This document shows, one piece after another, positions 1 through 14,639 of a DNA stretch of 20,059 nt. Both the position numbers and the translations under genes were made by a program. Every line of letters begins with the position of its first letter. Within the stretch, counting starts at the first letter, position 1. Location of the stretch: positions 1 through 20,059 of IMG/VR virus record IMGVR_UViG_3300047552_001065. One strand, written 5' to 3'. The notes under the pieces are model-generated. The model searched no databases. It was not told the DNA's origin and saw only the letters and a program-made list of their open reading frames with translations. Origin of the DNA: a virus.

Positions 1-3000
1 CGACTTGGTGCCCCTCCATGATAAGCTGACCAAGGCCCGCTCTATTGTCTTCTACTGGGCCATTCTTTAGGTAACGCCTTAAGATCCCTTCATGGTCTTC
101 CAAGATGCGAAGTTGACCACCCTTAACCCAGAAGCGACCATGTGAGTAGTCACGGTCTACGGTATAGATTTCATCGTTATCGGCCAAGTCCATAGCCTTG
201 CACATGCGAGCAGACTCAACTTCGGTGTACTCTCGCTTGATTAAGCTGGCTTGCTCGATAGCTTCAAATTCAGACTTACGTACGCTCTGGCCGGGGATAG
301 CGTCCATCTGTTCATTGTGCATGAGCGCCGGGATACCGTAAGAGTGGAAGAAGAGAGAAGCTGCGGCTTCTCCAAACTGATCCTCCACTCGTTTTGTAGC
401 CCTAGCAACCCGTTCTGGAATACCAACCACCTCAGACTCGTTCTTCTGTAGCCAGGGTTCCTCTGACTGTGGGAAATCGTGCGGGATACCCTCTTCATTT
501 AGGATTTGAGGGATTGCCTGCCAAAACGGGTCATGTGCGGTACCGGCATTGGCGTTTTCGGTTGGACGCCCCAGCAAAGTTTCATACTGAGGGTACGCTA
601 GCCAATGTAGCCAAAAACCTGGGCCTACTGCCTGTTCGGGCCTCGTTCCAAAATGCTCTGGGTACAAAGTCTGAGCTTTTCGCACAGAGGGGTTGCTCTG
701 CAAGAAGTGTCTGTCCAATGCCCGAAGAATGGGCTCTCCTTCCATCGGAGAAAGGGTACGTTGGACAACATCAAACTCCGCTTTCTGTGCAAGAGACAAA
801 TTGAACAAGGAACGCATCATGTGACGGTCGGGGACAATCATGTTGCCCATGCCAGCCATCAATCCCATGTAACGAGCAAGCTTCGGCCCAAACCCGTACA
901 TGAAAGCTCCTGGGCCATGGGCAAGCTTCTGCTGCATGATGTAATCCACAAACGAACGTCCGTCGTTCTTAACAATTCGGTGCAACGCCATAAGAGTCGG
1001 ATGCACCTTATGGTAATTGAGCAGAGGCTTGCCTTGTGGGCGTTTTTCAAACGTCGCCTGCTCGCGTGCCAAGAAAGCCTTGGTGCCCGGAGCGGGGCGT
1101 GAACGTTCCGTACCATATTTCATCCCACCAGGGCCACCTTCTGCATAGTACGCTGGTAGGAACTGGGGAGGAGTCAGGCTGTTAAGGTGATTATGGAAAG
1201 CGATGGCATCCTGAATAGAAACCCCCTCTAGATTGGTAAACAAGTCAGGGTGCTGATGTCTGAAATCCATGTAATGCCCAAAGTAAAGCTCCTGAATGGG
1301 GACAGATGTATTGGGGCTCATAGCCGCAAAGATGGCAGCATGCGCCATGACGCTTGCCGGTAGATTCCCAGTTTCAGCCAACTTGTTCATCACCATCCAT
1401 GACCGCATAGCGCGTGCCCATGGTCGGTGTACGTAAGTCAAAATGTGTTCCCGTTGCTCTGGGGTCAGATTGGGGCTTTCCGCTTCATTATCGGCATTGA
1501 TAATGCTAGCCATGACGGGATCGGTGTCCCAATTGTGCAGCTTGATGCCTTGAGGCATGGCGGGAGCAAAAAGAACACCTCCGACGAGCCCCGGCCTAAC
1601 GGTGTTAGCCCAACGACCCTTGCCGGGAGCAAGTGCGGGAGCGTCTGTAGGATTTTCCGCTTCAGGAGTCGGCTTGTACTGCTCAACAGGCATTGGGAGA
1701 GGAGGCTTCTCCTTGGGAGGACGCTTGGCGCGTTCCTTTTTGGGCTTCTTAGGCTTGACTTCGGTAGCGGGGGCCTCTGCGGGCTCGCCTTCTTCCGTCT
1801 TTGCCATGGGAAGTTCCCACTTAGACATGAGACTGTCCAATACTGCTGGACGCGCCTTGATATCTGCAACGAGGTCTGTAAAATGGTCTAGGAAAGTCTC
1901 ATTGACTTCCGGTAACTGCCATTTAAAGAACTTAAGCATGGCAGCTTTACCAACCACCTCGACTCCCATGTCGCGGATAGCGGAACGTAGCTTGTTTTTG
2001 AAGTCGTGCCGATGAAGTCTATCGTCTTCCCGCTGCAAGGCTGCTCCACCCTCAAGAGTAGACGGAGCGCCGCTGGTCATGCCACCAATATAGGTCTTGA
2101 GAAGCTCCTCAGTCTTACGAATCTTGTCTTTGAAGGTTTCGTTTGATCCCTTCCACTCGATTTCGTCGTCGCTGTCCTTCTTCTTGCGCCTCGCCTTGAT
2201 GATGGACTTGTTGTCCTGCGTGGGAATTTCGCCGTACTTAGCAGGCTCCATACCCATCTTCTCAGGGATGTCCTTGTAGGTTACGATATAGTGGCCCGGG
2301 AGCGGTGCGTGCTGATCCATGCCGTTCATGGCAGCCTTAGCGCCGGGAGCCCAGATGTGAACGGGGGTGCCCGCAAAGTTGTTATCGCGTGCCCACTGAT
2401 GGAACCCTTCATGCAAGATTTCAGCAGGCTGCTTGTTGCCAAACAGGATCTTCTGGATCTGCTTGAGATGATCGTCGGGCAGTTTTCCGTACAAGTCTCT
2501 GCGATGGAAGTCTGCCGCCTCTGGCGTCATGCGTCCTTCGGCAACCTCTTTCCCAAGCTGATGCTCAATTAGGGCAGACCACTTGCGCCCATAATCACTC
2601 TGAACTTCGTCAATGTGGATACCATCTTTGCCACCCGTCCATCGCACCCAACCGATGGTACCGGGCTGAACAGGGTGTTGCGATCCCTGCGATATTTTAT
2701 GCATGTTCATAAAACTATCTAGGACACCCGCGCTGTGCAGCTTGGCAGCTTGTTCGTTGGTTAGATTTAGGCGGAAGACGTTAGAGTTGAGATCGTTGTG
2801 ACGCTGGATATAATCATAGATCCCCATATCCGCAGAATGGTTGAAACGGATTCGCGGTTTGTCGTCTATGAGTTGCTGGATGCGGCTGACAGAGAAGTTT
2901 CCCTCATAGTCTCTACCAGTATGGGCGAGAGCTTGCCGAATTGGCTCTGGTAATCTGGGGTCACGTTCATTGACTCTCTGCATGTTGTTTTCTAGTAGGA

Positions 3001-3862
3001 AGTCGCGCAACTGTCGCAGCTTATTAGCCCCCAGAGTCAACTGCAAGGAAGGGTACATCGAGTCAAAATCAAATTCCCCCTTTTGTAAATCAATGGGAGT
3101 CAAAAAATTGTACTTGATAGGGTGCCACTTGTAAGTGCTCAGACGTAAATCGTAAATCCGTTCGGCAGCACTCTTAAGCATTTCAACCGCATCTTCTTCC
3201 ACGATGGGGTTGTATGACATTTCGTAGCTGCCCAGGTGTTGCTGGCCCGGAGCCTCGCTCTTGCTGGTGTCGTCTTCAAGTAAACGGGAGAGAAGAGACT
3301 TCTCGCCCTGCTTTTCTGTGATGGGCTTAGGCCCAGAGGGGTCGGAAATCAGTCCGCTAATGGCACTCTTGTTAGCTGGCTTGAAGGTCAAGGCAACCTT
3401 GCGTCCGATTGTCCGGAGCAGGCGATTGCCTTCCTTCTTGAGAGTGGTCCCCTCAATAGAGAAGCGAAGTAGGATTGGCTCAGAGTGCATCACCGCATCG
3501 CGGATTGCGGCGGCGAGGGCTAGAGCGCCCGGGTGCTCTGCTCCATCATAGAGGCGAGCCTTGATGTAGATGAAGGGCAGCTTGACATGATCCCAGTACG
3601 CTTCCTGGCGCTTGCCTTCACAGTCCGCTCGCTTAAAGATTTTCTTGGAGTAGATGATCTTGCCAACGATGTCGTTGCCGCTTGCCCCTTGCGCTTGGTC
3701 ACCGCGATGCTCATAGTTGAGGAGGCCAACACCGTTTTCAAAGTCAGAGGTATCGCACCCCTTAACGTCTAGAATTTCTCCTGAACTATCAATGGCTTCG
3801 CTGGCGGCTACGCCGTCAATGATCATGCTAGTAGCGGAGGTTTGCTTGGAGGGGGTTACCAT
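1..3862 (-). CDS. Prohead protease-led polyvalent virion protein (partial, runs off left edge)
   Basis: I read this frame from ATG at 3862 to the left edge (1287 codons) and found no stop, so the C-terminus is missing. Residues 13-170 look like a prohead maturation protease: a GEILDVKGCD strand, candidate catalytic His52 (NYEHRGD) followed by DIVGKI, and candidate nucleophile Ser135 (LLRFSIEG). Residues 400-545 contain GWVRW, then IHIDEVQSD (415-423) and HYIVTYKDIPEKMG, which resembles a domain I recall from large phage and conjugative-element polyvalent proteins. Residues 686-750 are a Lys/Pro/Glu-rich linker. Residues about 800-1040 include AAMSPNTSVPIQE and GFGPKLARYMGLM...PDRH, matching the HhH-GPD DNA glycosylase active site (Lys994, Asp1012). 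The protease should cleave scaffold and perhaps the protein itself; the rest may be packaged with DNA. No Shine-Dalgarno precedes the ATG. The next ATG, codon 13, has none either. The protease call is good; the later domains are inferences. Confidence 0.85.
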   Translation of the reverse strand, partial: MVTPSKQTSATSMIIDGVAASEAIDSSGEILDVKGCDTSDFENGVGLLNYEHRGDQAQGASGNDIVGKIIYSKKIFKRADCEGKRQEAYWDHVKLPFIYIKARLYDGAEHPGALALAAAIRDAVMHSEPILLRFSIEGTTLKKEGNRLLRTIGRKVALTFKPANKSAISGLISDPSGPKPITEKQGEKSLLSRLLEDDTSKSEAPGQQHLGSYEMSYNPIVEEDAVEMLKSAAERIYDLRLSTYKWHPIKYNFLTPIDLQKGEFDFDSMYPSLQLTLGANKLRQLRDFLLENNMQRVNERDPRLPEPIRQALAHTGRDYEGNFSVSRIQQLIDDKPRIRFNHSADMGIYDYIQRHNDLNSNVFRLNLTNEQAAKLHSAGVLDSFMNMHKISQGSQHPVQPGTIGWVRWTGGKDGIHIDEVQSDYGRKWSALIEHQLGKEVAEGRMTPEAADFHRRDLYGKLPDDHLKQIQKILFGNKQPAEILHEGFHQWARDNNFAGTPVHIWAPGAKAAMNGMDQHAPLPGHYIVTYKDIPEKMGMEPAKYGEIPTQDNKSIIKARRKKKDSDDEIEWKGSNETFKDKIRKTEELLKTYIGGMTSGAPSTLEGGAALQREDDRLHRHDFKNKLRSAIRDMGVEVVGKAAMLKFFKWQLPEVNETFLDHFTDLVADIKARPAVLDSLMSKWELPMAKTEEGEPAEAPATEVKPKKPKKERAKRPPKEKPPLPMPVEQYKPTPEAENPTDAPALAPGKGRWANTVRPGLVGGVLFAPAMPQGIKLHNWDTDPVMASIINADNEAESPNLTPEQREHILTYVHRPWARAMRSWMVMNKLAETGNLPASVMAHAAIFAAMSPNTSVPIQELYFGHYMDFRHQHPDLFTNLEGVSIQDAIAFHNHLNSLTPPQFLPAYYAEGGPGGMKYGTERSRPAPGTKAFLAREQATFEKRPQGKPLLNYHKVHPTLMALHRIVKNDGRSFVDYIMQQKLAHGPGAFMYGFGPKLARYMGLMAGMGNMIVPDRHMMRSLFNLSLAQKAEFDVVQRTLSPMEGEPILRALDRHFLQSNPSVRKAQTLYPEHFGTRPEQAVGPGFWLHWLAYPQYETLLGRPTENANAGTAHDPFWQAIPQILNEEGIPHDFPQSEEPWLQKNESEVVGIPERVARATKRVEDQFGEAAASLFFHSYGIPALMHNEQMDAIPGQSVRKSEFEAIEQASLIKREYTEVESARMCKAMDLADNDEIYTVDRDYSHGRFWVKGGQLRILEDHEGILRRYLKNGPVEDNRAGLGQLIMEGHQV

Positions 3863-3937: not shown

Positions 3938-4150
3938 ATGGCAAAGACCGTCAAGTTGGTTCCAGTAAAGAATTGCAAGGAATGCCCCCACTGTACCACC
4001 AAGCTGACCAAGGGATACGGCTACGCCGAAGACTTCCTCTGTACTCTTACCAAGCGGAAGGATAACCTGATCGCTGGCTATGTGGAGTGGGACTCCGAAG
4101 CTCCCCAGGATCACAAGTTCCCCCAGTGGTGCCCCCTTAAGGACAAGTAA
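3938..4150 (+). CDS. Small cysteine-rich protein, probable zinc binder
   Basis: This 70-residue protein is the first gene of the rightward cassette, preceded by AGGAGGAG with a 3-base spacer. It has Cys13-x2-Cys16-x2-Cys19 near the N-terminus, then Cys35 and Cys65 (PQWCPL), a spacing that suggests a compact metal-binding fold. Similar small proteins with a C-terminal WCPL are, from memory, frequent in phage genomes without assigned function. It lacks a signal peptide or membrane segment, so it should be cytoplasmic. It is followed one base later by the next ATG, which implies co-translation. No catalytic motif is visible and I assign no function. Confidence 0.85.
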   Translation: MAKTVKLVPVKNCKECPHCTTKLTKGYGYAEDFLCTLTKRKDNLIAGYVEWDSEAPQDHKFPQWCPLKDK

Positions 4151-4151
4151 A

Positions 4152-4562
4152 ATGAACGACATCAAGCCTATTGAAATTACGCAGACAATCACCACTATCA
4201 AGGGTTGGGCCTGCGACAAGTGCGACAAGACCTTTGAGAAGGAGGAAGCGGCCAGAAACCATAGAGCTTCCCACATGTATACGCATTCGGATTGGATCCG
4301 TGGCGATTCTTTCTATCGCTTTGAAAACGAATACGATTTCACCTACTGGAAGCGGTACGGCTTGTACCATCACCATGGCGGTTGCGCTGGCTCCTGGGAG
4401 GGTCCGGGCTGGTATCTGATCGATTGGAAGGGGCCAGAAGACAACCAATACCCCAGTTTAGAGCCCGCGACGACCATCCTCACGCTTCGACTGAACAACG
4501 CCGAATACGAGTATCGGCAAGCTAAGGAAACTCTTGCAGAATTTGCTAAGCTTGCACCTTAG
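4152..4562 (+). CDS. C2H2 zinc-finger protein, unknown function
   Basis: I place the start at ATG 4152 (136 residues) because AAGGA lies just upstream in the end of the previous gene and the two genes are one base apart; an upstream ATG at 4080 would lie deep inside that gene. The N-terminal part has a textbook classical zinc finger: Cys21-x2-Cys24-x12-His37-x3-His41 with an aromatic at Phe28 (CDKCDKTFEKEEAARNHRASH region, 21-41). The middle is rich in Trp, Tyr, His and Gly (about 47-100), and the C-terminal 30 residues look helical (NNAEYEYRQAKETLAEF). A nucleic-acid or protein binding role is an inference from the finger. Its last codons overlap the -35 element of the next promoter. Confidence 0.82.
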   Translation: MNDIKPIEITQTITTIKGWACDKCDKTFEKEEAARNHRASHMYTHSDWIRGDSFYRFENEYDFTYWKRYGLYHHHGGCAGSWEGPGWYLIDWKGPEDNQYPSLEPATTILTLRLNNAEYEYRQAKETLAEFAKLAP

Positions 4563-4580
4563 CCCACACTCTGCTATAAT
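4552..4580 (+). promoter_or_regulatory. Sigma-70-like promoter giving a leaderless mRNA
   Basis: The -35 TTGCAC (4552-4557), a 17-base spacer and a perfect -10 TATAAT (4575-4580), extended by TGC, form a strong promoter. The expected +1, about seven bases past the -10, is 4587, which is the A of the next gene's ATG. No Shine-Dalgarno lies upstream of that ATG, so the transcript is probably leaderless. Confidence 0.75.
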
Positions 4581-4586
4581 GCTTCT

Positions 4587-5039
4587 ATGACACTGAACGA
4601 GACTATCGCCCTCTGCAAGACCCTCCATCGCAAGGTTGGCGGAAAGACGTACTACGCCTATGCCGCCGAAAAGGCTACGCCCGGGGTTTGCTTCGACTTT
4701 GAGGGCAACCCCTTCTGGGGCACCACCAAGACCATCGAAGTGGTCTACTGCTGTGGGAAGGGCGGTAGCTTCGTTCCGGCCAAGTCTGGGGAAGCCATCT
4801 TCTCCATTCAGGCCAGCAGCCCGGAGCGCGTCGAGGCTCACTGGAATAGCTTTCTTTCCAATCACAACGCTGTCGCCCCTCAAACCCAATCCTGGGTCTG
4901 CATCAGCAATGGCCCCGGGCGTGAGTACCGTGGACGAGTGGTCCGTACTACCAAGACCCGGGTGCTGGTCAGCTACAGGTTCGGAAACGGTCGTCAGGCT
5001 GCCAACAAGTGGTTCAAGCTGTCGGAGATTAGCTGGTAA
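4587..5039 (+). CDS. Hypothetical protein, leaderless
   Basis: This 150-residue protein begins at ATG 4587 directly at the predicted transcription start of its own promoter and has no ribosome binding site. I do not recognise the family. It has a mixed N-terminal half with Cys35, Cys55 and Cys56 and a Gly-rich turn (CCGKGGSF). The basic C-terminal 40 residues (EYRGRVVRTTKTRVLVSYRF) alternate polar and hydrophobic residues like a small SH3-type beta barrel, which would suit nucleic-acid binding, but this is only a guess from composition. The stop codon shares a base with the next ATG (TAATG), so the next gene is probably translated by re-initiation. Confidence 0.8.
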   Translation: MTLNETIALCKTLHRKVGGKTYYAYAAEKATPGVCFDFEGNPFWGTTKTIEVVYCCGKGGSFVPAKSGEAIFSIQASSPERVEAHWNSFLSNHNAVAPQTQSWVCISNGPGREYRGRVVRTTKTRVLVSYRFGNGRQAANKWFKLSEISW

Positions 5040-5275
5040 TGAAAGTCCCCTGCTATATCTGCGAAGCCCCTACCGAAATTGATGACATCGTGACGCATCT
5101 GCGTCGTCATTCCGACGAGGACTACCAGCGAGCCGTCAAGAAGGTCATCAAGGGCACTAAAAAGGCCGCAGGGACCATCGTAAATGGCCCCATTGACACC
5201 AGCGTTGGTACAGTAGTTAAGAAGAAATCCAAGGGATTCGTACAACTTGACGAAACACGGGAAAAGGTGGTATAG
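5039..5275 (+). CDS. Small C2H2 zinc-finger protein
   Basis: This 78-residue protein starts at an ATG that overlaps the previous stop by one base. It carries a classical finger at the extreme N-terminus: Cys5-x2-Cys8-x11-His20-x3-His24, followed by a highly basic stretch (AVKKVIKGTKKAAG, about 32-45) and a basic KKKSKG segment near residue 62. A DNA- or RNA-binding role is plausible from finger plus basic tail but is inferred. It is the second C2H2 protein within 1.1 kb; the two differ in everything outside the metal ligands. Its last codons contain the promoter of the next gene. Confidence 0.8.
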   Translation: MKVPCYICEAPTEIDDIVTHLRRHSDEDYQRAVKKVIKGTKKAAGTIVNGPIDTSVGTVVKKKSKGFVQLDETREKVV

Positions 5276-5276
5276 T
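5247..5276 (+). promoter_or_regulatory. Sigma-70-like promoter giving a leaderless mRNA
   Basis: The -35 TTGACG (5247-5252), an 18-base spacer and -10 TATAGT (5271-5276) lie inside the end of the upstream gene. The expected +1 is near 5283, which is the A of the next ATG. A weak AAGGTGG (5264-5270) lies 12 bases from the ATG, too far to be ideal, and would be absent from a transcript starting here. Confidence 0.65.
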
Positions 5277-5282
5277 AACCAC

Positions 5283-5633
5283 ATGGTCAACATCTACCTC
5301 GATGACGAGCGTGTCACCCCGCCCCATTTCGACATTCGGACTTGGACAGCCCAGGACACCATCAACGAGCTTGAGGACCGGGCTGGCGACGTAGACCTTC
5401 TCAGCCTGGACAACGACCTTGGCATTCTGCATTGGATGTCTGAGGGGCGCTACGTCTGCCTTTGGTTGGCTGAGCAACTGAACCTCTTTGGCCGTTCTTA
5501 CTACCCCCGCCGCATCCGCATCCACAGCGCGAATCCTGTGGCGCGAGACTACATGAAGGGGCTGATCGAGCGGTACGGCCCCTATCGTTGGGACGCTGTT
5601 AATCAGGAGTACGTTGACGATTCCCGAATGTAA
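5283..5633 (+). CDS. Cyclic-phosphate-processing receiver-like domain protein
   Basis: This 116-residue protein has the signature of the receiver-fold family described by the Aravind group as cyclic-phosphate-processing (cPPRec), linked in other genomes to RNA repair. The marks are an N-terminal YLDDER (Asp7, Asp8, Glu9, Arg10), SLDNDLG (41-47, Asp43 and Asp45) and IRIHSANP (His81, Ser82, Asn84). Unlike a normal response-regulator receiver it keeps the HSxNP motif. The predicted role is acting on 2',3'-cyclic phosphate RNA ends; that is family-level inference, not shown. I chose ATG 5283 over an upstream in-frame TTG (5247) because the family starts at this YLDDER strand and the promoter predicts a start here. 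It shares the cassette with an RlaP-type nucleotidyltransferase. Confidence 0.8.
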   Translation: MVNIYLDDERVTPPHFDIRTWTAQDTINELEDRAGDVDLLSLDNDLGILHWMSEGRYVCLWLAEQLNLFGRSYYPRRIRIHSANPVARDYMKGLIERYGPYRWDAVNQEYVDDSRM

Positions 5634-5641
5634 GGAGAACC

Positions 5642-5968
5642 ATGCAAAACTACGTCTACAAGATTGAGGAACGTACCCACGACGATGGTCAGAAGACCTT
5701 TGATGTGGTCGAGTACGACTTCGACGGCTGCAACTACGGAGCCGACAGCACGCACGCCAACGAGGTCGATGCGATCATCAGCGCATTCTTTATGAATGCG
5801 TGGCAGAAGATCGGCAACTACGACTTGGCGAGCATCGCCACGGCCAAGTACATCCTCAAGAACGGGCTGCGCCCTGTAAACGTCCACATCAAGTTCTTCA
5901 ACAATGCCACCGGCCAGTACGACGGTGCCGGAATGTGGAACTACCTCTGGGAGAGCGCCAATGGCTAA
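5642..5968 (+). CDS. Hypothetical protein
   Basis: This 108-residue protein has a good ribosome binding site (AAGGAGA, 5632-5638) that begins at the last base of the previous stop codon. The N-terminus is acidic and strand-like, and the middle (about 40-75) looks helical with aromatic residues. No Cys cluster, catalytic signature or membrane segment is visible, and I do not recognise the family. It overlaps the next gene by eight bases, which argues for co-translation within the cassette. Confidence 0.8.
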   Translation: MQNYVYKIEERTHDDGQKTFDVVEYDFDGCNYGADSTHANEVDAIISAFFMNAWQKIGNYDLASIATAKYILKNGLRPVNVHIKFFNNATGQYDGAGMWNYLWESANG

Positions 5969-6206
5969 GGTGCCTGAGTACGAGATCGAACAACACTACA
6001 GGATCTATAACAACAAGGAAGGTACCTGCATCGTTGTCGGCCCAGACGGGGAGCTTGGCTGCGTTCAGGTTCGTACTGCCGACAGGAAGTCAGAAGAGTG
6101 GTACGGCAAGATTGACCTAATGTTGCAGCCAGAGGCGGCTCTGGCCCTTGGCGAAGCACTCATTAAGGCCGCTAACGACGCTATCGAGAAAGCAAAGGTG
6201 AGCTAA
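5961..6206 (+). CDS. Hypothetical protein
   Basis: I set the start at ATG 5961 (81 residues), eight bases inside the previous gene; an earlier in-frame ATG (5904) would lie much deeper in it. The first half looks like short beta strands (YRIYNNKEGTCIVVGPDGEL), and the last third is a clear amphipathic helix (QPEAALALGEALIKAANDA). This pattern is familiar from small phage proteins, but I know no function for it. The stop overlaps the next ATG by one base. Confidence 0.78.
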   Translation: MAKVPEYEIEQHYRIYNNKEGTCIVVGPDGELGCVQVRTADRKSEEWYGKIDLMLQPEAALALGEALIKAANDAIEKAKVS

Positions 6207-6652
6207 TGGTTGATGCCCGACAGGCAGGATGGCTCAAAGAAAAGATAGAGTGGGTCTTCGGACTTCTGGGTGGGGAGCTTGCCAGCGAACCATGGGACGG
6301 ACACCTTCATTGGCACGAAGGGACACCCGAATACGTCAAGGGGCACTACTCCGATACCGTTAACTATCGCACGGTCATCATGGACTGTGCTACGTCCAAT
6401 CCTCCGGGCAACATCGAGAATTGGAAACTGCACAGCACCTTCTCTAATAGCGGAGAAACTGAGTGTCCCGGTGGCTGGATGGGGGATGGTACGGTTACGG
6501 AGCAGGACTCTGTTGAGATTCCAAAGGCCCCTGAAGGGACCTACAGGGTATGCCCCTATTGTGAAAACCCGCTTAGAACGAAGCACGGGATGATCTATCT
6601 TGGGGATGGTTGGGTTGAGGCAGTTTACGAAGAGGGGGAGGGGAGCCCGTGA
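6206..6652 (+). CDS. Hypothetical protein with C-terminal CPYC motif
   Basis: This 148-residue protein starts at a TAATG junction with the previous gene. The N-terminal half is rich in Trp and His (EPWDGHLHWHEG). The last third has Cys116-Pro-Tyr-Cys119, which with Cys87 and His127 could make one zinc site. The CPYC alone would also fit a redox motif, but no thioredoxin-like context is visible. The C-terminus is acidic. I do not recognise the family. Confidence 0.78.
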   Translation: MVDARQAGWLKEKIEWVFGLLGGELASEPWDGHLHWHEGTPEYVKGHYSDTVNYRTVIMDCATSNPPGNIENWKLHSTFSNSGETECPGGWMGDGTVTEQDSVEIPKAPEGTYRVCPYCENPLRTKHGMIYLGDGWVEAVYEEGEGSP

Positions 6653-6927
6653 GCACCGCCGCAATTACTTTCCACTACGCCCCTTGGCTTCTCAAGAAGG
6701 GGGAAGTCAACGCCGAAATAATCACCATCGGTTTTGAAACACCCGAAACTACCGTAGATGGTATCACCAAGCAAATGCTCGACATGAAGTTTGGCCATGT
6801 TGCTGGCGGGCACGGGATCTGGGCATTGCAGCTTGCCGACTACTGCCGAATTGATCTTCCCAACGGGGAACGGTGGATCATTAAAGATCGCACCGGCCCC
6901 GCCACCCCTTATCAGGAGGGTTACTGA
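6649..6927 (+). CDS. Hypothetical protein (GTG start)
   Basis: This 92-residue protein starts at GTG 6649, four bases inside the end of the previous gene, with a purine-rich GAGGGGAG just upstream as ribosome binding site. The sequence alternates strands and helices (FHYAPWLLKKGEVNAEIITI) and has no recognisable motif. The stop shares a base with the following ATG (TGATG). Function unknown. Confidence 0.75.
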   Translation: MSTAAITFHYAPWLLKKGEVNAEIITIGFETPETTVDGITKQMLDMKFGHVAGGHGIWALQLADYCRIDLPNGERWIIKDRTGPATPYQEGY

Positions 6928-7175
6928 TGTTCCACATCTGCGGCGAAGAAATTACGATGGCTATCGGCTTACTCACGGGTAGCGGTACGCTCTACCACTA
7001 CCTGCGGACTCGCTGGCTGGCGCGTCACAAGTGCTCCAACGGCAGCACCAGCGGCGGCACCGGCCACGGTAAAGAGGGCACCAACGCCGCATGCCCCCAT
7101 AACCATGCCGAATACGATCAGGGCGCGTACAGCGAAGGTCGGCTGGATGGGCGTACCGAAGATGCCACCAGCTAG
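6927..7175 (+). CDS. Possible small protein, antisense to a membrane protein gene
   Basis: This 82-residue frame starts at a TGATG junction and has AGGAGGG (6913-6919) at good distance, like its neighbours in the cassette. However, 69 of its codons lie antisense to a convincing minus-strand gene (6969-7283). The protein is Gly/Ser/Thr/His-rich with three Cys and shows no family motif. It may be real, a decayed gene end, or a by-product of the gene opposite. The start signals favour it and the overlap counts against it. Confidence 0.4.
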   Translation: MFHICGEEITMAIGLLTGSGTLYHYLRTRWLARHKCSNGSTSGGTGHGKEGTNAACPHNHAEYDQGAYSEGRLDGRTEDATS

Positions 7176-7283
7176 AAGGATGCCTGCGTAGCCACCGTAG
7201 AGCAGGGCGGGGAGTAGGGCAACTGCGAGGAAGAGGGCAAGGCCCACAGCGGAACCGACAACGGGATAAGTCTTAGTATTCAT
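6969..7283 (-). CDS. Small membrane protein, two to three transmembrane segments
   Basis: I place the start at ATG 7283 (104 residues) because CTAGGAGATACACA gives an ideal ribosome binding site; a longer frame to 7418 lacks one. Residues 8-28 and 53-71 are strongly hydrophobic, residues 29-43 may form a third segment, and 72-86 is an Ala/Gly-rich stretch (AGAAAGAAVGAL). The tail is short and charged (VVVERTATRE). It is the only leftward gene inside the rightward cassette. Size and topology would allow a holin, but no lysis gene lies nearby and nothing else supports that. Location in the inner membrane is inferred from hydrophobicity. Confidence 0.7.
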   Translation of the reverse strand: MNTKTYPVVGSAVGLALFLAVALLPALLYGGYAGILLAGGIFGTPIQPTFAVRALIVFGMVMGACGVGALFTVAGAAAGAAVGALVTRQPASPQVVVERTATRE

Positions 7284-7390
7284 TGTGTATCTCCTAGGAT
7301 GTAGTACAGCAACCTTCATGCCAGTTTTTGACTCTCGTAAAATCAAGTAGTTAGAAACGTACATGTCGGGAATTCCAGAAAGGTGTCTAA
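7284..7390. promoter_or_regulatory. Divergent intergenic region, possible promoters
   Basis: This gap lies between the leftward membrane gene and the rightward gene at 7391. A TTGACT (7328-7333) followed after 18 bases by TAGAAA (7352-7357) is a weak rightward promoter candidate. The rightward gene has AGAAAGGTG (7377-7385) as ribosome binding site and the leftward gene has AGGAG. No convincing leftward promoter is visible. Confidence 0.3.
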
Positions 7391-7591
7391 ATGGCCCATC
7401 ATAAAAAGCGTAAGCCACCCAATGCCAGAGCCGGTTGCAAGATGTGCAAGCCCTGGAAGATCAGCGGCATGAGCGAAAAGAAAACACTAACTCACGGCGA
7501 GCAACTTCAACTGTTCAGGGAAACCGACGACTACGAAGATGACTATGCCGAAATCGAAGCCATCCTAGAGGATGACAATGCAGATTTCTGA
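7391..7591 (+). CDS. Small CxxC protein of a common phage/bacterial type
   Basis: This 66-residue protein begins with a very basic segment (HHKKRKPPNARAG), then Cys16-x2-Cys19-Lys-Pro, and ends in an acidic tail (DDYEDDYAEIEAILEDDNADF area, 46-66). The basic RAGCxxCKPxK motif occurs, from memory, in many short uncharacterised proteins of phages and proteobacteria. The two cysteines could bind metal as a dimer or half-site. The ribosome binding site is AGAAAGGTG. Its end overlaps the start of the nucleotidyltransferase gene by 14 bases. Confidence 0.78.
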   Translation: MAHHKKRKPPNARAGCKMCKPWKISGMSEKKTLTHGEQLQLFRETDDYEDDYAEIEAILEDDNADF

Positions 7592-8678
7592 CCTAACCAT
7601 AGTTCATGAACAGTCGATGCCCTGGCTCAAGGATAGCGTCATCCTGGCCTCGCGTGCGGGCAGCCATGCCTATGGCACCAACATTGAAGGGAGTGACGAA
7701 GACTTCCGGGGCGTGGCCATTGCGCCGCGCGAATACTACCTGGGCTTCGTCAAAACCTTTGAGCAGGCTGAGCAGCGGGAGCCTTACGACAGCGTGATCT
7801 ATGAGCTTCGGAAGTTTATGAGGCTGGCTGCCGATTGCAACCCGTCCATCCTTGAGCTTCTTTTTGTGGACGAGTCAGACGTTATCTTCGCTAACGAGGC
7901 TGGCTGCGCCCTGAGAGATAACGCCCACCTATTCCTTAGCAAGAAGGCGCAGTACACCTTCACCGGCTACGCCATTAGCCAGCTTGGCCGTATTCAGCGT
8001 CATTATGCTTGGCTCAAGCACCCGCCGACCAAGGAGCCCACTCGCGTTGACTATGGGCTGCCAGAGCGGACGGTCGTACCAGCGGACCAGCGAGCGGCAG
8101 CCGAAGCAGCGGTGAAGTCTAAACTTCACGATTGGGAAGCCGATCTTGAGCCTGTTGATCTTGCCACCCGGATTTTGATCACCAGCAGGATGCAGAAGGC
8201 TATGGTGGAAATGAAGCTAGCCAGCGCAAGCGAAATCTGGGCTGCTGCGGCTAGAACCATTGGAGTAGACGACAACTTCATCCGGCTTATGGAGATGGAG
8301 CGCGGATACAACAACGCCCGGAACGAATGGAAGCAGTACCAGAACTGGAAGGCTACCCGGAATCCCGCTCGCGCGGCGCTGGAAGAGAAGTACGGCTACG
8401 ATACCAAGCACGGCATGCACCTTGTCAGGCTCATGCGTATGGGCTACGAAATTATGTCTGAGGGGAAGGTGCTAGTAAAACGGCCTGACGCTAAGGAGTT
8501 ACTTGAGATTCGCGCTGGCGCTTGGACTTACGAGCAACTACTTGAGTTTGCTGGTGAAATGGAGAAGAGGATCCTGGCTGCGGCGGCTACGTCATCTCTG
8601 CCCCGTGCGCCGGATAGAGAAGCACTTGACAAGCTTTGCATTTCCTTAGCCAACTATATGCATAACAACAGCGCCTAA
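7578..8678 (+). CDS. RlaP-type predicted nucleotidyltransferase
   Basis: This 366-residue protein has the DNA polymerase beta-type nucleotidyltransferase signature: GSHAYGT (28-34), then SDEDFRG (39-45) with metal-binding Asp40 and Asp42, followed by APREYYLGF. This matches the predicted nucleotidyltransferase family (Pfam Nuc-transf, RlaP), found in other genomes beside RNA ligases and proposed to add nucleotides during RNA repair. A long helical region follows (about 120-340), giving a size normal for the family. I chose ATG 7578 because AGAGGA sits five bases upstream; the in-frame ATG at 7572 would overlap that site. No RNA ligase lies in this window, but a cyclic-phosphate receiver-like gene is in the same cassette. 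The substrate is not known. Confidence 0.88.
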   Translation: MQISDLTIVHEQSMPWLKDSVILASRAGSHAYGTNIEGSDEDFRGVAIAPREYYLGFVKTFEQAEQREPYDSVIYELRKFMRLAADCNPSILELLFVDESDVIFANEAGCALRDNAHLFLSKKAQYTFTGYAISQLGRIQRHYAWLKHPPTKEPTRVDYGLPERTVVPADQRAAAEAAVKSKLHDWEADLEPVDLATRILITSRMQKAMVEMKLASASEIWAAAARTIGVDDNFIRLMEMERGYNNARNEWKQYQNWKATRNPARAALEEKYGYDTKHGMHLVRLMRMGYEIMSEGKVLVKRPDAKELLEIRAGAWTYEQLLEFAGEMEKRILAAAATSSLPRAPDREALDKLCISLANYMHNNSA

Positions 8679-8805
8679 TGCAGATGTGGCCAGGGTCAAT
8701 GCGAGCAAAGCCAAGATCAATGCCTTATCGCATTTTACGGGCTCATGCATGAACATAACGTTTCCCATACACTTAGAAGGTTATGTCCGTATTATGAGGA
8801 CCGTT
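8679..8805. other. Convergent intergenic region with weak inverted repeat
   Basis: The rightward cassette and the leftward head module meet here. The only structure I see is an inverted repeat AATGCGA (8698-8704) / TCGCATT (8728-8734) followed by a short T run (8733-8736). The loop of 23 bases is long for an intrinsic terminator, so a termination role is weak. A second pair, ACATAAC / GTTATGT, lies near 8754-8786. Confidence 0.3.
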
Positions 8806-9582
8806 TTAATCCACATTGTGTTGGTGGTCGTACTCGCTATAGCCGACTTTTTTGTACTGCACAAAGCCACCAGCGTTGAATCCGTATCCGGGCATTAGAG
8901 TAACGAGAGTACAGCGGCAATGAGGATGAAGCCCACCGATACTAGGGCTATCTTCGCCCCTCTTATGGTAGCCATGTGAAAGCTCGCTGAGTCGCCAGAC
9001 GCGGGGAGTTTTGCCATCGGGCAGGAGGTGCAGCCTTTTACACTCGTTACACAGGTCTTCATCTCTCACCACCACAAAAAAGACTACGGGGTCATCGACG
9101 CCTGCGTTCAGGTTCGCCCCCACAATACCGTCAAGGACGGAAACGTTCTTGGCATGATTGACTTCAGTATCGATAATGGTGTGGACCGCATTCGCCGCAT
9201 CGGCCCACACTTCACTCAATCGAGTATTGACCAGCCCCCGAAAATCCTCTCTGGACATTCCACCAGAGTGTTTCGCTTCTGCTAGTGCTCCGTTAATTTC
9301 GTGAATGACCTTGGCGGTAGTGCGCTGACGAGAAGCCTCAAGGTAGTCGGTGGCAACCCGAATCAGTGACGCTAAGACTTCCATGTCGGGTTTGATGTTC
9401 TCTTCCATCGAGCCCGCTTCAAAAATACCGGGTAGCGAGAAGTTGCGGTCAAACGAAATGAAGATCCGCTTTCCCACGGCATTCGGGCCAAGGAAACGGA
9501 CCTTTGCATTGTCGTAGAGAGCTTCTATCGCTTTTTGGATCTTACGCGATGCCCCCTTACCAAGTCTATTCAGATTGGCCAT
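8806..9582 (-). CDS. MuF/SPP1 gp7-like head morphogenesis protein
   Basis: This 258-residue protein ends in the classic C-terminal signature of phage Mu F-like minor head proteins: Asp/Glu then Cys178-x2-Cys181, a short loop, and HPHCRC (219-224), which together could bind a metal. The N-terminal two thirds are helical (12-145). Such proteins sit at the portal vertex inside the head; a few copies are packaged and may be ejected. It directly follows the portal gene: AAGGAG is within the portal's last codons and the portal stop shares one base with this ATG. The usual next gene, the protease, lies 4.9 kb further left beyond the rightward cassette. Confidence 0.88.
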   Translation of the reverse strand: MANLNRLGKGASRKIQKAIEALYDNAKVRFLGPNAVGKRIFISFDRNFSLPGIFEAGSMEENIKPDMEVLASLIRVATDYLEASRQRTTAKVIHEINGALAEAKHSGGMSREDFRGLVNTRLSEVWADAANAVHTIIDTEVNHAKNVSVLDGIVGANLNAGVDDPVVFFVVVRDEDLCNECKRLHLLPDGKTPRVWRLSELSHGYHKRGEDSPSIGGLHPHCRCTLVTLMPGYGFNAGGFVQYKKVGYSEYDHQHNVD

Positions 9583-11654
9583 TACTTCTCCTTGGGAGCA
9601 TGTGCCTCTGCAATGTCTAGAATGTCATCTATGGCTGCGCGAGCGTCGTTCTCCCAAGCGTCCATGATGTGTTTAATGGTACGACGCTGCTGGACTACCA
9701 ACCGGCGCTTAGAAGGGGGTAGCTGGGCTTCAGACTTAGACATATCAGCCAGGGCTTGGTCAACGCCCTGCGTCAATTCCTGACCACCACCCTGCTCCTG
9801 GGGCTGTTCTTCTTGGGGAGCCTGCCCTTCCTCTGGCGGGGGACCACCTTCACCGCCGCCTTCTGGGGGTGGGCCACCTTCGCCTCCACCACCCTCACCG
9901 GGAGGCGGCTGGCCTTGCGCGGCTGCCTGCTGCTGTGCCTGTGCCTCTTGCTGCATCTGCATCATCTGTAGCTGTAGCTGTTGCCACTGGAACCAGAAGG
10001 GGTCGCGGTAATACTTCATGGTTGGGTCTTGGCTAGCACCCTTTCGGCCAAAGAACTTCTCCTGAATGACTCCCACTTCGACGTACTTGTCGAGAATGGC
10101 TTGCCATTGGGGGTTGATCAGGAACTCACCACCAAACTCCTTACCGATTGGGTCCTTTTCCACATGGGACAGTACCTCGTCCATGTTCATGTGAAGAGGC
10201 ATGTCGGTCGATAGACGGACGGCTTCCTTTTCTGCTGAATCTGCATCCAAACCCACAAGCTTGATGACGCAGAGCTTGCTTAGCTCCTCGTCCATTGCTG
10301 GGAAGATGGTCCCGTTTAGGAAGTCCTCAAACTGGGCAAGTAGGGGACGGATGCCGGTGTCGCGGTGCGCCTCTAGCTGATACTCTTTGTTGCTCTCAGA
10401 AAGGCTTTGGTTATTGGTACCGCGAGACAGATGGGCATAACCGGGTAGCTCCTCTGGGGACATCTGGAAGGCAGAGAGGATGACTCGGGCGTTGCTGTCC
10501 GATAGGTACTGGAATTCCATGTCGCGTGCAGTAGTCTCGATAGGCTGGAAAGTAACCTGATCCTTCGGGCCAATCGCGAACACCGGCATGCGCCAGGAGT
10601 TGTTAACGTTGTTGATGTTCGCCTGGAACTGCTGGCGAATCTTAGCCACCTCGTTCTCACTCAAGTCCTCGCTCTGAATAACGAGCATGCCCTTGGCGGC
10701 TCGACCAGATTGGAAGAATAGCTTGTTGTGTGAAGTTATGTTGATATGTGTGGTAACGGCTGCGATTACAGTGTCTAGTGGGGTAAGTGGATAGCCCTGT
10801 AGCTCAACGTCAGTGACAGGATAAACAGTATGAACAGCAAGCTCCTTGCCAGTAAACACTTGAATCGGCAAGCCGTTGATGACCTGTACCCACGGGTAGT
10901 TTTCATCGAAGTTTTCAGCCTCTTCCTCCTTGATCTTTCGGTTAAGCATCTGCTCCATAAGCTTGCGAGCTTGCTTACGAACGTTCTCAGCCGTAGTCTT
11001 GTAGGGGGCGGCGCGATAAATAGTACCAGCGTCTACCGGGCGGAAAGAGTGGAATTCCTTGGTGCCATTGTCATCTGGTGCATACAACATTTCCGTAGCG
11101 AACCGTCCAAGAACGAGAGCGTTGCGGGTCTGCATGGCTAGGAAGCGGGAAAGGGTCAAAGCCTCTTCCTGCTCCCAGCCCTTCGTAGCTCCACAGGTGA
11201 GGAGTCGCTTCTCAAACTTGTCTACCCGCTTGGCTAGAGTTTCTTTTTCCTGTTCGTCGGCTTTCTCCGCAATCTCAGGCTTGATATCTACTTTGTATCC
11301 TAGGGAGAAACGATCTGGCTGTGGACGACCGAACGCAGAAAGCTGGTTAGAACGAGCATTGATGATAGCGGCTACTAGGTCGTCTTGAATCGACACCCTC
11401 TTGAGGAGGAAGTCTGGAATGAGGCGGATCTTCTGGCGGTAAATTGCAGCGTACTCGTTGTTCTGAGTCGGGTCACGCTCAAACGACAAACGCTGAATGG
11501 AATCACCCTGGTCGCTAAGGGCAGAGAGCATGCTCTTAAGCAACGGACTCTCAGTCGGGTCGTTCTCCATCTTCTCTACCTTGTCCAACGGAGTAGAGTT
11601 TGGATCGGCCAAAAACAACTTGACCGTTTTGTTAACAACGGGGCGCTTTGCCAT
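9582..11654 (-). CDS. Phage portal protein
   Basis: This 690-residue protein forms the dodecameric ring through which DNA enters and leaves the head. It matches portals by its N-terminal helix-rich part (IPDFLLKRVSIQDDLVAAI, near 79-97), the region VELQGYPLTPLDTVIAAV with an amphipathic helix after it, the RGTNNQSLSES segment in the crown approach, and its position between TerL and a MuF protein. The C-terminus carries a Gln-rich stretch (about 553-577) followed by a low-complexity Gly/Pro/Glu repeat (GEGGPPPE units, about 578-625) and then a basic helical end. Ribosome binding site AAGGAG is seven bases from ATG 11654. The family call is strong; the low-complexity tail is unusual. Confidence 0.88.
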   Translation of the reverse strand: MAKRPVVNKTVKLFLADPNSTPLDKVEKMENDPTESPLLKSMLSALSDQGDSIQRLSFERDPTQNNEYAAIYRQKIRLIPDFLLKRVSIQDDLVAAIINARSNQLSAFGRPQPDRFSLGYKVDIKPEIAEKADEQEKETLAKRVDKFEKRLLTCGATKGWEQEEALTLSRFLAMQTRNALVLGRFATEMLYAPDDNGTKEFHSFRPVDAGTIYRAAPYKTTAENVRKQARKLMEQMLNRKIKEEEAENFDENYPWVQVINGLPIQVFTGKELAVHTVYPVTDVELQGYPLTPLDTVIAAVTTHINITSHNKLFFQSGRAAKGMLVIQSEDLSENEVAKIRQQFQANINNVNNSWRMPVFAIGPKDQVTFQPIETTARDMEFQYLSDSNARVILSAFQMSPEELPGYAHLSRGTNNQSLSESNKEYQLEAHRDTGIRPLLAQFEDFLNGTIFPAMDEELSKLCVIKLVGLDADSAEKEAVRLSTDMPLHMNMDEVLSHVEKDPIGKEFGGEFLINPQWQAILDKYVEVGVIQEKFFGRKGASQDPTMKYYRDPFWFQWQQLQLQMMQMQQEAQAQQQAAAQGQPPPGEGGGGEGGPPPEGGGEGGPPPEEGQAPQEEQPQEQGGGQELTQGVDQALADMSKSEAQLPPSKRRLVVQQRRTIKHIMDAWENDARAAIDDILDIAEAHAPKEK
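9790..9915 (-). repeat. Gly/Pro/Glu low-complexity repeat within the portal gene
   Basis: The coding strand here reads imperfect repeats of a GEGG-PPPE unit, about three in a row, then a Gln/Glu/Pro-rich tail. It lies upstream of the last basic helix of the portal and would be a flexible, disordered link. Such repeats can vary in copy number between related phages. Confidence 0.6.
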
Positions 11655-12677: not shown

Positions 12678-14639
12678 CTAGAAATTCCAATTGAATGAGC
12701 CCTTTCCGCCCACTTTTGGCCCTTCATCGACTACTTCACCGTCATAGTCGATTCCGGTGCGCTCTACGATGATTTGCTGCATCCACGTATTGAGATTGTA
12801 CTGTTTTTTGCCCTCTTGGAGAGGTTCCCGCTTGCTTTGGTCACCCAATCGGTCCACTTCGCTCACCGATGCCTTCATTTTGATAGACATGGCGTTCATT
12901 ACGAGGTATCTGAGGGCATCGCACTCGTCATCATCCTCGTCATCGGGCTCTTTGGTGAGGCGTCCAGCCGCATCTACGACCCAGTGATACGTAGAAATGC
13001 GCTGGGCAAGGTGATCGCAGCCTTCATCGTTCTTCAAAAGGTACAATCGGACATCTTCTGCCTTGCCAAGAGCGGGCATGATGGCTAGACGGACCAAAGA
13101 AATGCCGTCGATGACCGATCCCTTGCCTTTTACCCACTCCTTGATACGTAAATGGGCGTCTTTCTTAAGGGTTTTGTTGTCTCCGGGAGCTTCCGTATCG
13201 GCCCAGACCTCTGGATCGTGCGGGGCAACTCGCTGTAGGCAGATTTCGACCTTTTGAGATAGCTCTAACTCAGCCTGGGCGATGACATCGAAGATATAGA
13301 GCCGTTGGCCGTAAATGGCCCCCAGGACGACGACAAAGTTGTGACTGAATCCATGGTCGATACCGGCCACAAAACGCGCCCCTCGCTCCTTGAGCAACGC
13401 TATGAGGTCGCTCTTGGAGAAGGAGTCCTTGCGCTTCTCGCCATCGATGATGAACGCCATGTCGGCGGCGGTCTTCATGTGGGTATCGCGGTTGAAATTG
13501 GGGTAGATCAACCCCTGAGTCGAGGGCTTGCGGCAGAGTAGCTGAGCCTGGGCCTTGTCAATGGTCACCTTGCGGAACACGTTTTGAGTGTGTTCGACCG
13601 GCTTGAGGAAACCGCCGCAGTTTACTCCGTTCCCGTCGCAGCGGGGGCAGACAGTTTTGGTAGCCAAGCGACCACGGCACATGGCGAAGAGGCGGCAGTT
13701 GTGAAGGCAGCCGTAGTAGGCTTCATCTTCATGCCACTTGTCCTTCTCTACTTGGTCAAAGAGGTTGTAGTCAGCGTCGGAAATGGTCTTGAGAGACTCG
13801 TCGTTGTACCAAACCTTGATCTTTTCCTTTTCGGGCTGGTGTCGGAAGGAAGGGCATGGGTGGGTGACATCGATTAGGTTCCAGTGGCGAATGAGCAGGC
13901 CCGTTTCTGCCTGCTGGTCGATTTCCTTCTGGACAAGTCCGTAGGAATACTTACGGGTAGAGGTGTAAAGGGTGATGGGCATCTTCCCGTTCATAGGTGC
14001 GGGAATCATCTTCGCTTCTTCGTAAGCGTCCGGGTTTTCCACAACGTCAACTTCGTCCACGATCATTACCGGTACGTGTTCTGAGTTAGCACCGGCGATG
14101 GTACAAATAACGATGGTGACGTAGTGTTTGATTTCCTCGTAGCTTGCTTGGTCGGCTGCTAGGAGGCCAGCAAATTCTTCGGTGGTCAAGTTGCGCCCAG
14201 TAACAGCGTTGTGGTATCGGGTGATCTCAACGAACCGCTCGTTCTTGACCGTAACGAATTTACGAATGTACGGGCGGTTGATGTGACGCTTGAGGTACTG
14301 CTGACTCTTCTTTGCCTGGGACTCGATAGCGGCCATGTGAGCTACTGATCGTCCCAGGAGGACGACGCAGAGCATTTCAAAGATGGCGGCTGAGAAGGTC
14401 TTGAAGGAGTCGCGGGCTGCGTATGCTAGAACTTGGCTGTACTCAGGCTTGTTCAATCGGGCAGCATCGTAAAGCTCCCACACCATGTCCATTGGGGAAG
14501 AGTTGGAATCCGGGTCAACAATGACAGCGGGCAAGTTAATACCCAGATAGACCCTAATCCACTGGTGGAGGTCTTCCTTAGTCTCGGGGAGGACAAACAG
14601 CGCCGCCTCAAGTTGTTCTGGTGTCGGTCCTTCAATCAT
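12678..14639 (-). CDS. terL: Terminase large subunit
   Basis: This 653-residue motor cuts and translocates phage DNA into the prohead. The ATPase half has a Walker A-like AARDSFKT (74-81, Lys80) without the usual glycine before Lys, and Walker B VMIVDEVD (191-198, Asp195, Glu196). The nuclease half is RNase H-like with acidic residues in GIDHG (Asp428), WADTEAP (Asp481) and DDDECDALRY (Asp574). Between the two halves is a cysteine cluster: Cys311, 315, 321, 331, 334 and 341, with CPRCDGNG like a DnaJ-type zinc repeat. The start follows a TAATG junction with the small zinc peptide gene. The family call is firm. Confidence 0.93.
   Translation of the reverse strand: MIEGPTPEQLEAALFVLPETKEDLHQWIRVYLGINLPAVIVDPDSNSSPMDMVWELYDAARLNKPEYSQVLAYAARDSFKTFSAAIFEMLCVVLLGRSVAHMAAIESQAKKSQQYLKRHINRPYIRKFVTVKNERFVEITRYHNAVTGRNLTTEEFAGLLAADQASYEEIKHYVTIVICTIAGANSEHVPVMIVDEVDVVENPDAYEEAKMIPAPMNGKMPITLYTSTRKYSYGLVQKEIDQQAETGLLIRHWNLIDVTHPCPSFRHQPEKEKIKVWYNDESLKTISDADYNLFDQVEKDKWHEDEAYYGCLHNCRLFAMCRGRLATKTVCPRCDGNGVNCGGFLKPVEHTQNVFRKVTIDKAQAQLLCRKPSTQGLIYPNFNRDTHMKTAADMAFIIDGEKRKDSFSKSDLIALLKERGARFVAGIDHGFSHNFVVVLGAIYGQRLYIFDVIAQAELELSQKVEICLQRVAPHDPEVWADTEAPGDNKTLKKDAHLRIKEWVKGKGSVIDGISLVRLAIMPALGKAEDVRLYLLKNDEGCDHLAQRISTYHWVVDAAGRLTKEPDDEDDDECDALRYLVMNAMSIKMKASVSEVDRLGDQSKREPLQEGKKQYNLNTWMQQIIVERTGIDYDGEVVDEGPKVGGKGSFNWNF

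Follow-up and report, generated by a model that had tools for sequence, protein, structure and literature searches.

The window analyzed here is the complete, 20,059-base IMG/VR virus record IMGVR_UViG_3300047552_001065, and its minus strand carries most of a giant gene that is led by a prohead protease domain. We propose, with a probability of roughly 0.6, that the encoded giant protein is a self-processing head-assembly polyprotein, which matures the capsid, cuts its own cargo free, and leaves that cargo in the head, from where it would probably enter the cell along with the DNA. In the proposed mechanism, the S78/assemblin-type protease would mature the capsid protein at LxK sites, with the cut falling behind the Lys where Ala, Ser, or Thr follows, and would sever itself from the C-terminal cargo at the same site inside the giant protein, here between Lys589 and Thr590. 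The freed cargo, made up of a diguanylate cyclase and a glycosylase-like domain (plus, in many relatives, a kinase-like domain), would begin with a capsid-like N-terminus that may anchor it to the shell and keep it in the head. Further cuts, for example after the Lys of LRK-A behind the glycosylase-like domain, are a weakly supported possibility. In the Myxococcus phage Mx1, which is related, the cut would be expected to create the new N-termini AMEAGNFNAAPSTLQGG (giant protein, residue 243) and AMEAGNFNAKPSTLVQG (capsid protein, residue 15).

In the program-made frame list, the giant gene is an ATG-started frame on the minus strand (3862..2) with 1287 open codons that reaches the window edge. 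As the window is the whole record, the rest of the gene lies outside it; the end was recovered from a second contig, IMGVR_UViG_3300042988_000731 (L002), which carries an identical giant gene (100%) plus its 3' end (remaining codons at L002:11862-12896), giving a protein of 1631 aa. An earlier note on this DNA had described a single open frame of at least 1287 codons in which a prohead-protease-like N-terminus was joined to several unrelated modules. Both the frame and the fusion are confirmed, and the fusion extends to a GGDEF domain that lay outside the view of the note; a helical, HhH-like domain and a capsid-like motif at residues 587-614 had been missed.

Residues 8-178 (3329..3841, minus strand, as for all parts of the giant gene) are an S78/assemblin-type prohead protease, and several lines of evidence back the protease-like character that had been proposed for the N-terminus: its fold, a profile comparison, the conservation of the active site, and the surrounding genes. 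Residues 6-54 match the head maturation protease family PHROG 1028. The AlphaFold model (29 rows), which bears on the protease fold expected by the earlier note within residues 1-180, is assemblin-like and confident at residues 8-178, where the predicted local distance difference test score is mostly >90, and the score is low over most other parts of residues 1-720. The top solved folds in Foldseek were herpesvirus assemblins (probability 0.98, E 3e-3), a score lowered by the disordered remainder of the model. The hhalign comparison of the giant protease family with SPO1 gp3.2 reached 98%, with His and Ser in register, and SPO1 gp3.2 itself matches Pfam PF04586 (Peptidase_S78); the protease region of the giant protein gave no Pfam match even at E up to 10. 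The putative catalytic His52 (3707..3709) and the putative nucleophile Ser135 (3458..3460), the latter within S-[IV]-E-G, sit at the positions that had been named for them and do not vary in any of the 29 homologous rows. When a third catalytic residue was sought, His110 and Glu137 were likewise invariant in this alignment. The alignments of the giant family are shallow.

The protease is linked to the capsid by a 29-residue junction motif, LxKALEAGxxNAAPSTLxGGAALQxED, which follows the protease (or the insert behind it) in most giants and is also found near the start of the major capsid protein, inside its first 42 residues. In the window, the copy spans residues 587-614 (LLKTYIGGMTSGAPSTLEGGAALQREDD; 2021..2104), and the predicted P1 residue is Lys589 (2096..2098). 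A hidden Markov model (HMM) built from giants only was searched against the six-frame Mx1 genome and found just the giant (E 3e-15) and the capsid protein (3e-9), with the next match at 3.4; over the fetched loci, giants and capsid proteins were the exclusive matches above noise. The motif Lys is kept in 29 of 30 giant copies and in all 24 capsid copies (counts that include duplicate loci of a single contig), and K occupies the Lys589 position in 26 of the 29 rows of the giant-protein alignment. The capsid protein of the window phage is on neither contig, and the junction was compared with the capsid proteins of relatives. The capsid family of these phages matches the capsid proteins of SPO1 (gp6.1) and phi812. 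For phi812, the deposited capsid chain 9row_B (439 aa) starts at Ser25 of the 463-aa form, directly after Lys24, which aligns with the Lys of the junction motif; this deposited start was taken as the mature end of the phi812 capsid protein. A cut at the conserved Glu after ALQx was set aside, because it is the Lys bond at which the phi812 chain begins.

Copies of this kind are not limited to the giants. Each of the SPO1, GH15, and Listeria LP-064 proteases repeats, behind its protease domain, the capsid junction of its own phage; in GH15, ESFMK followed by SFLTGHGTSPDTQVDAGALRKE in the protease corresponds to EDVVK followed by SFQTGYGITPDTQIDAGALRRE in the capsid protein (E 3.5e-10), and the capsid profile PHROG 752 independently matches the protease tails of SPO1 and GH15. 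Because these SPO1-type proteases carry the copy and are cargo-less, the junction copy predates the cargo. The most plausible reading is that the protease matures itself at this site and that, in the present group, cargo was placed behind it or, as with DEVQSD here and SLT in L018, ahead of it. The self-processing that the earlier note had suggested is supported by a capsid-junction copy between protease and cargo that recurs in SPO1-type proteases, and cleavage itself is still what we infer. An alternative is that the motif serves for docking and is not cut, in which case the giant protein would mimic the capsid N-terminal arm, become incorporated into the prohead or be held against it, and remain intact. 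Conservation of the motif extends approximately 25 residues beyond the Lys (APSTLxGGAALQxED), which exceeds what most proteases need of a site and fits docking, and docking and cleavage are compatible, so that both can hold. We nevertheless regard docking in place of cleavage as unlikely, because the start of the phi812 chain indicates that the aligned Lys bond is truly cut during maturation and because the stand-alone SPO1-type proteases carry the copy yet have no cargo to dock.

Several side observations concern the motif and its surroundings. In a distant relative (L018:7983-9500), a transglycosylase (SLT) domain lies between the protease and a junction motif that resembles the motif of the capsid protein of L018 itself. 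In L045:10369-11688, on a 165 kb contig from an Elusimicrobia genome bin, a kinase-like domain directly follows the junction motif, and this contig is a possible phage and host lead. The SPO1 scaffold (L078) contains Lys-Ser pairs at four times the expected number.

Behind the junction copy lie a conserved helical segment (residues 618-670; 1853..2011), seen in the alignment and the model, and the Lys/Pro-rich linker (residues 688-760; 1583..1801), which is present as the earlier note had described it (about 688-760) and has a Lys/Ala/Pro-rich counterpart at the equivalent place in Mx1. A helical domain follows at residues 770-1200 (263..1555), delimited by model and hhalign. In two directions of hhalign, it matched bacterial HhH-GPD proteins at 70-91% with a Lys and an Asp in register, and control comparisons of the GGDEF and protease alignments with HhH-GPD stayed below 1%. 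The two residues, the putative glycosylase Lys994 (881..883) and Asp1012 (827..829), are 18 residues apart and invariant where aligned. An initial hhalign value of 98.9% to HhH-GPD was false and came from gap-rich end columns, and the query-column run was used instead. Pfam PF00730 (HhH-GPD) gave no match over the cut-off in residues 770-1200, and no glycosylase fold was among the Foldseek matches shown for the cargo models. Since Pfam gives no confirmation, the domain is called glycosylase-like only. Intein-like sequences (PF14890) interrupt it in L006:7983-12269, L022:5625-10544, L031:5535-10307, and L038:5106-9716; PF14890 is over the cut-off in L006 and weak in L022 and L038, and the L031 insertion was recognized by sequence likeness. 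The insertions of L006, L022, and L031 share an entry point, between SPN and C. At L033:6468-9470, a glycosylase-like domain occurs in a protease-less gene.

The start of a spacer domain (residues 1240-1287; 2..145) closes the part of the protein encoded in the window, and the GGDEF domain (residues 1475-1588), past the window edge, was read from L002. It matches PF00990 (E 9e-10, above the Pfam cut-off), other evidence being profile matches and Foldseek matches to solved diguanylate cyclases. D1484, N1492, D1501, and the GGDEF motif are present and mostly conserved across the group, and the domain is predicted to make the bacterial signal cyclic di-GMP. Sequence inspection found no RxxD I-site (product inhibition) upstream of GGDEF; many active diguanylate cyclases are without one.

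Scans of IMG/VR yielded approximately 30 distinct contigs with this design, and many of the long ones measure 165-180 kb and come from phages related to Mx1. The order protease, motif, glycosylase-like domain, [kinase-like domain], spacer, GGDEF is kept in most members, and the protease is N-terminal in every member found. The kinase-like domain reaches the Pfam cut-off in L031. GGDEF is fused in 10 members, all of them lacking the kinase-like domain; where members have a kinase-like domain and downstream sequence, GGDEF is a separate downstream gene. It is also separate in L032 and L042, in which the kinase-like domain is absent, and in L006 the module is divided among three genes whose ends overlap. 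Seven records were searched whole, and each contained one GGDEF match. As relatives split the modules into adjacent genes at domain boundaries, the modules can function as separate chains. The recurrence of the order also bears on whether the fusion might have arisen by chance, through misannotation or a recombination event in a single metagenomic contig, and lack functional meaning. The lack of a Pfam match for the giant protein up to the window edge and the unique DEVQSD insert would fit an accident, but the same order in about 30 contigs and in cultured Mx1, whose gene carries the annotation putative prohead protease, together with the conserved active sites and gene order, contradicts it, and we consider it extremely improbable.

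The cargo might also never be delivered. It could act in the cell late in infection, or form a prohead core that is lost on maturation, and the cut would then just free it. The giant gene sits in the late head module, and the GGDEF of some relatives is a separate gene without the motif, both of which would suit non-delivery; against it, the whole group has retained the active-site residues of the GGDEF and glycosylase-like domains, for which a core with only a structural role would have no use. We judge non-delivery to be rather improbable.

Other points weigh against the self-processing polyprotein. Some separate GGDEF genes of relatives have no visible junction motif, and packaging of their products would need another signal. 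The motif is weak or altered in L006, L007, and L031. A paper confirming the mature N-terminus of phi812 was not found, and this end is read from the deposited chain. Pairs of Lys with a small residue are just mildly enriched in the linkers (1.6-fold, in non-independent sequences) and in most scaffolds, and strong enrichment is confined to the SPO1 scaffold and a few relatives; this enrichment is thus minor support for cleavage. Cleavage, packaging and virion presence, delivery, and enzyme activities are reached by inference. A more specific proposal, which we put forward tentatively and at somewhat less than even odds, is that an entire group of large phages loads a diguanylate cyclase into its heads by way of a capsid-protease polyprotein, releases it at a site copied from the capsid, and so sets the host cyclic-dinucleotide signal at infection. 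If true, there would be a simple enzyme-loading rule for tailed phages, in which cargo is placed behind a capsid-junction copy on the protease that reads this junction. GGDEF enzymes would then be standard cargo of one large-phage group, and a cyclic-dinucleotide role in the first minutes of infection would be testable in cultured Mx1.

The insert between the protease and the junction copy (residues 235-580; 2123..3160) is unique to the window phage and is missing from Mx1 and every other relative found. It contains the DEVQSD motif (residues 418-423; 2594..2611) that the earlier note had pointed out. AlphaFold confidence is low over the insert, and searches of Pfam, PHROGs, viral contigs, phage records, and plasmids gave no relative of the DEVQSD region beyond chance. 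DEVQSD may resemble EEIQSD-type motifs of other large phage proteins.

With regard to the gene location, the giant gene has the portal and MuF-like genes upstream in the window, and the capsid gene lies downstream in Mx1 and relatives. On the minus strand of the window are a MuF-like minor head gene (8806..9582; weakly matched by PHROG families for head morphogenesis and minor head proteins, with an Mx1 homologue in the same place), the portal gene (9582..11654; PF04860), and the terminase large subunit gene (12678..14639; PHROG 5653). The order in Mx1 (169,621 b) is terminase, unknown, portal, MuF-like, opposite-strand island, giant, GGDEF, scaffold-like, and capsid protein. In the window, an island of small plus-strand genes (3938-8898) splits the head module and includes an RlaP-like nucleotidyltransferase (7572-8678; PF10127, E 6e-22); the opposite-strand island of Mx1 at this place is a different one. 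After its capsid gene, Mx1 encodes two large multidomain proteins, L046:24404-28843 (annotated as NUDIX hydrolase) and L046:28851-30710 (annotated as kinase), and the junction motif is absent from both.

The closest known counterpart is in Mx1, where WNM70322.1 ('putative prohead protease') and the adjacent WNM70324.1 ('nucleotide cyclase') show the same order of protease, motif, glycosylase-like domain, and GGDEF; Mx1 differs in lacking the DEVQSD insert, in having a C-terminal kinase-like domain, and in encoding GGDEF by a gene of its own. The head maturation proteases of Herelleviridae (SPO1 gp3.2, GH15 ORF090) share the protease domain and carry their own capsid junction copied behind it, but are stand-alone, cargo-less proteins of about 256 aa. 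In SPN3US, a large phage whose head contains ejected proteins, the prohead protease gp245 cleaves itself and head proteins (PMC10052503). Unlike in the giant, the SPN3US protease and its substrates are separate proteins. The sites of gp245 end in Glu (A-x-E) and not in Lys. In T4, Alt and the internal proteins are processed by the prohead protease, but they are not fused to it and carry a short targeting peptide instead of a capsid-junction copy. T4 Alt is a head-packaged enzyme that is injected together with the DNA (PMC5512222). Phage polyvalent proteins combine unrelated enzymatic domains, GGDEF among those listed, in one protein encoded beside head and packaging genes, and as a general finding an assemblin-like peptidase is at their C-terminus (Iyer et al. 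2017, PMC5512222). It is the analogy to Alt, together with this survey, that suggests delivery of the cargo with the DNA. The giant resembles the polyvalent proteins in having a protease, a glycosylase-like domain, and GGDEF in one chain, with portal and terminase genes nearby, and differs from them in its N-terminal protease and in the presence of GGDEF throughout the group. No description of this architecture was found in the literature searched. The giant is not a new kind of protein; what is new is a polyvalent protein with an N-terminal prohead protease, a capsid-mimicking site, and diguanylate-cyclase cargo.
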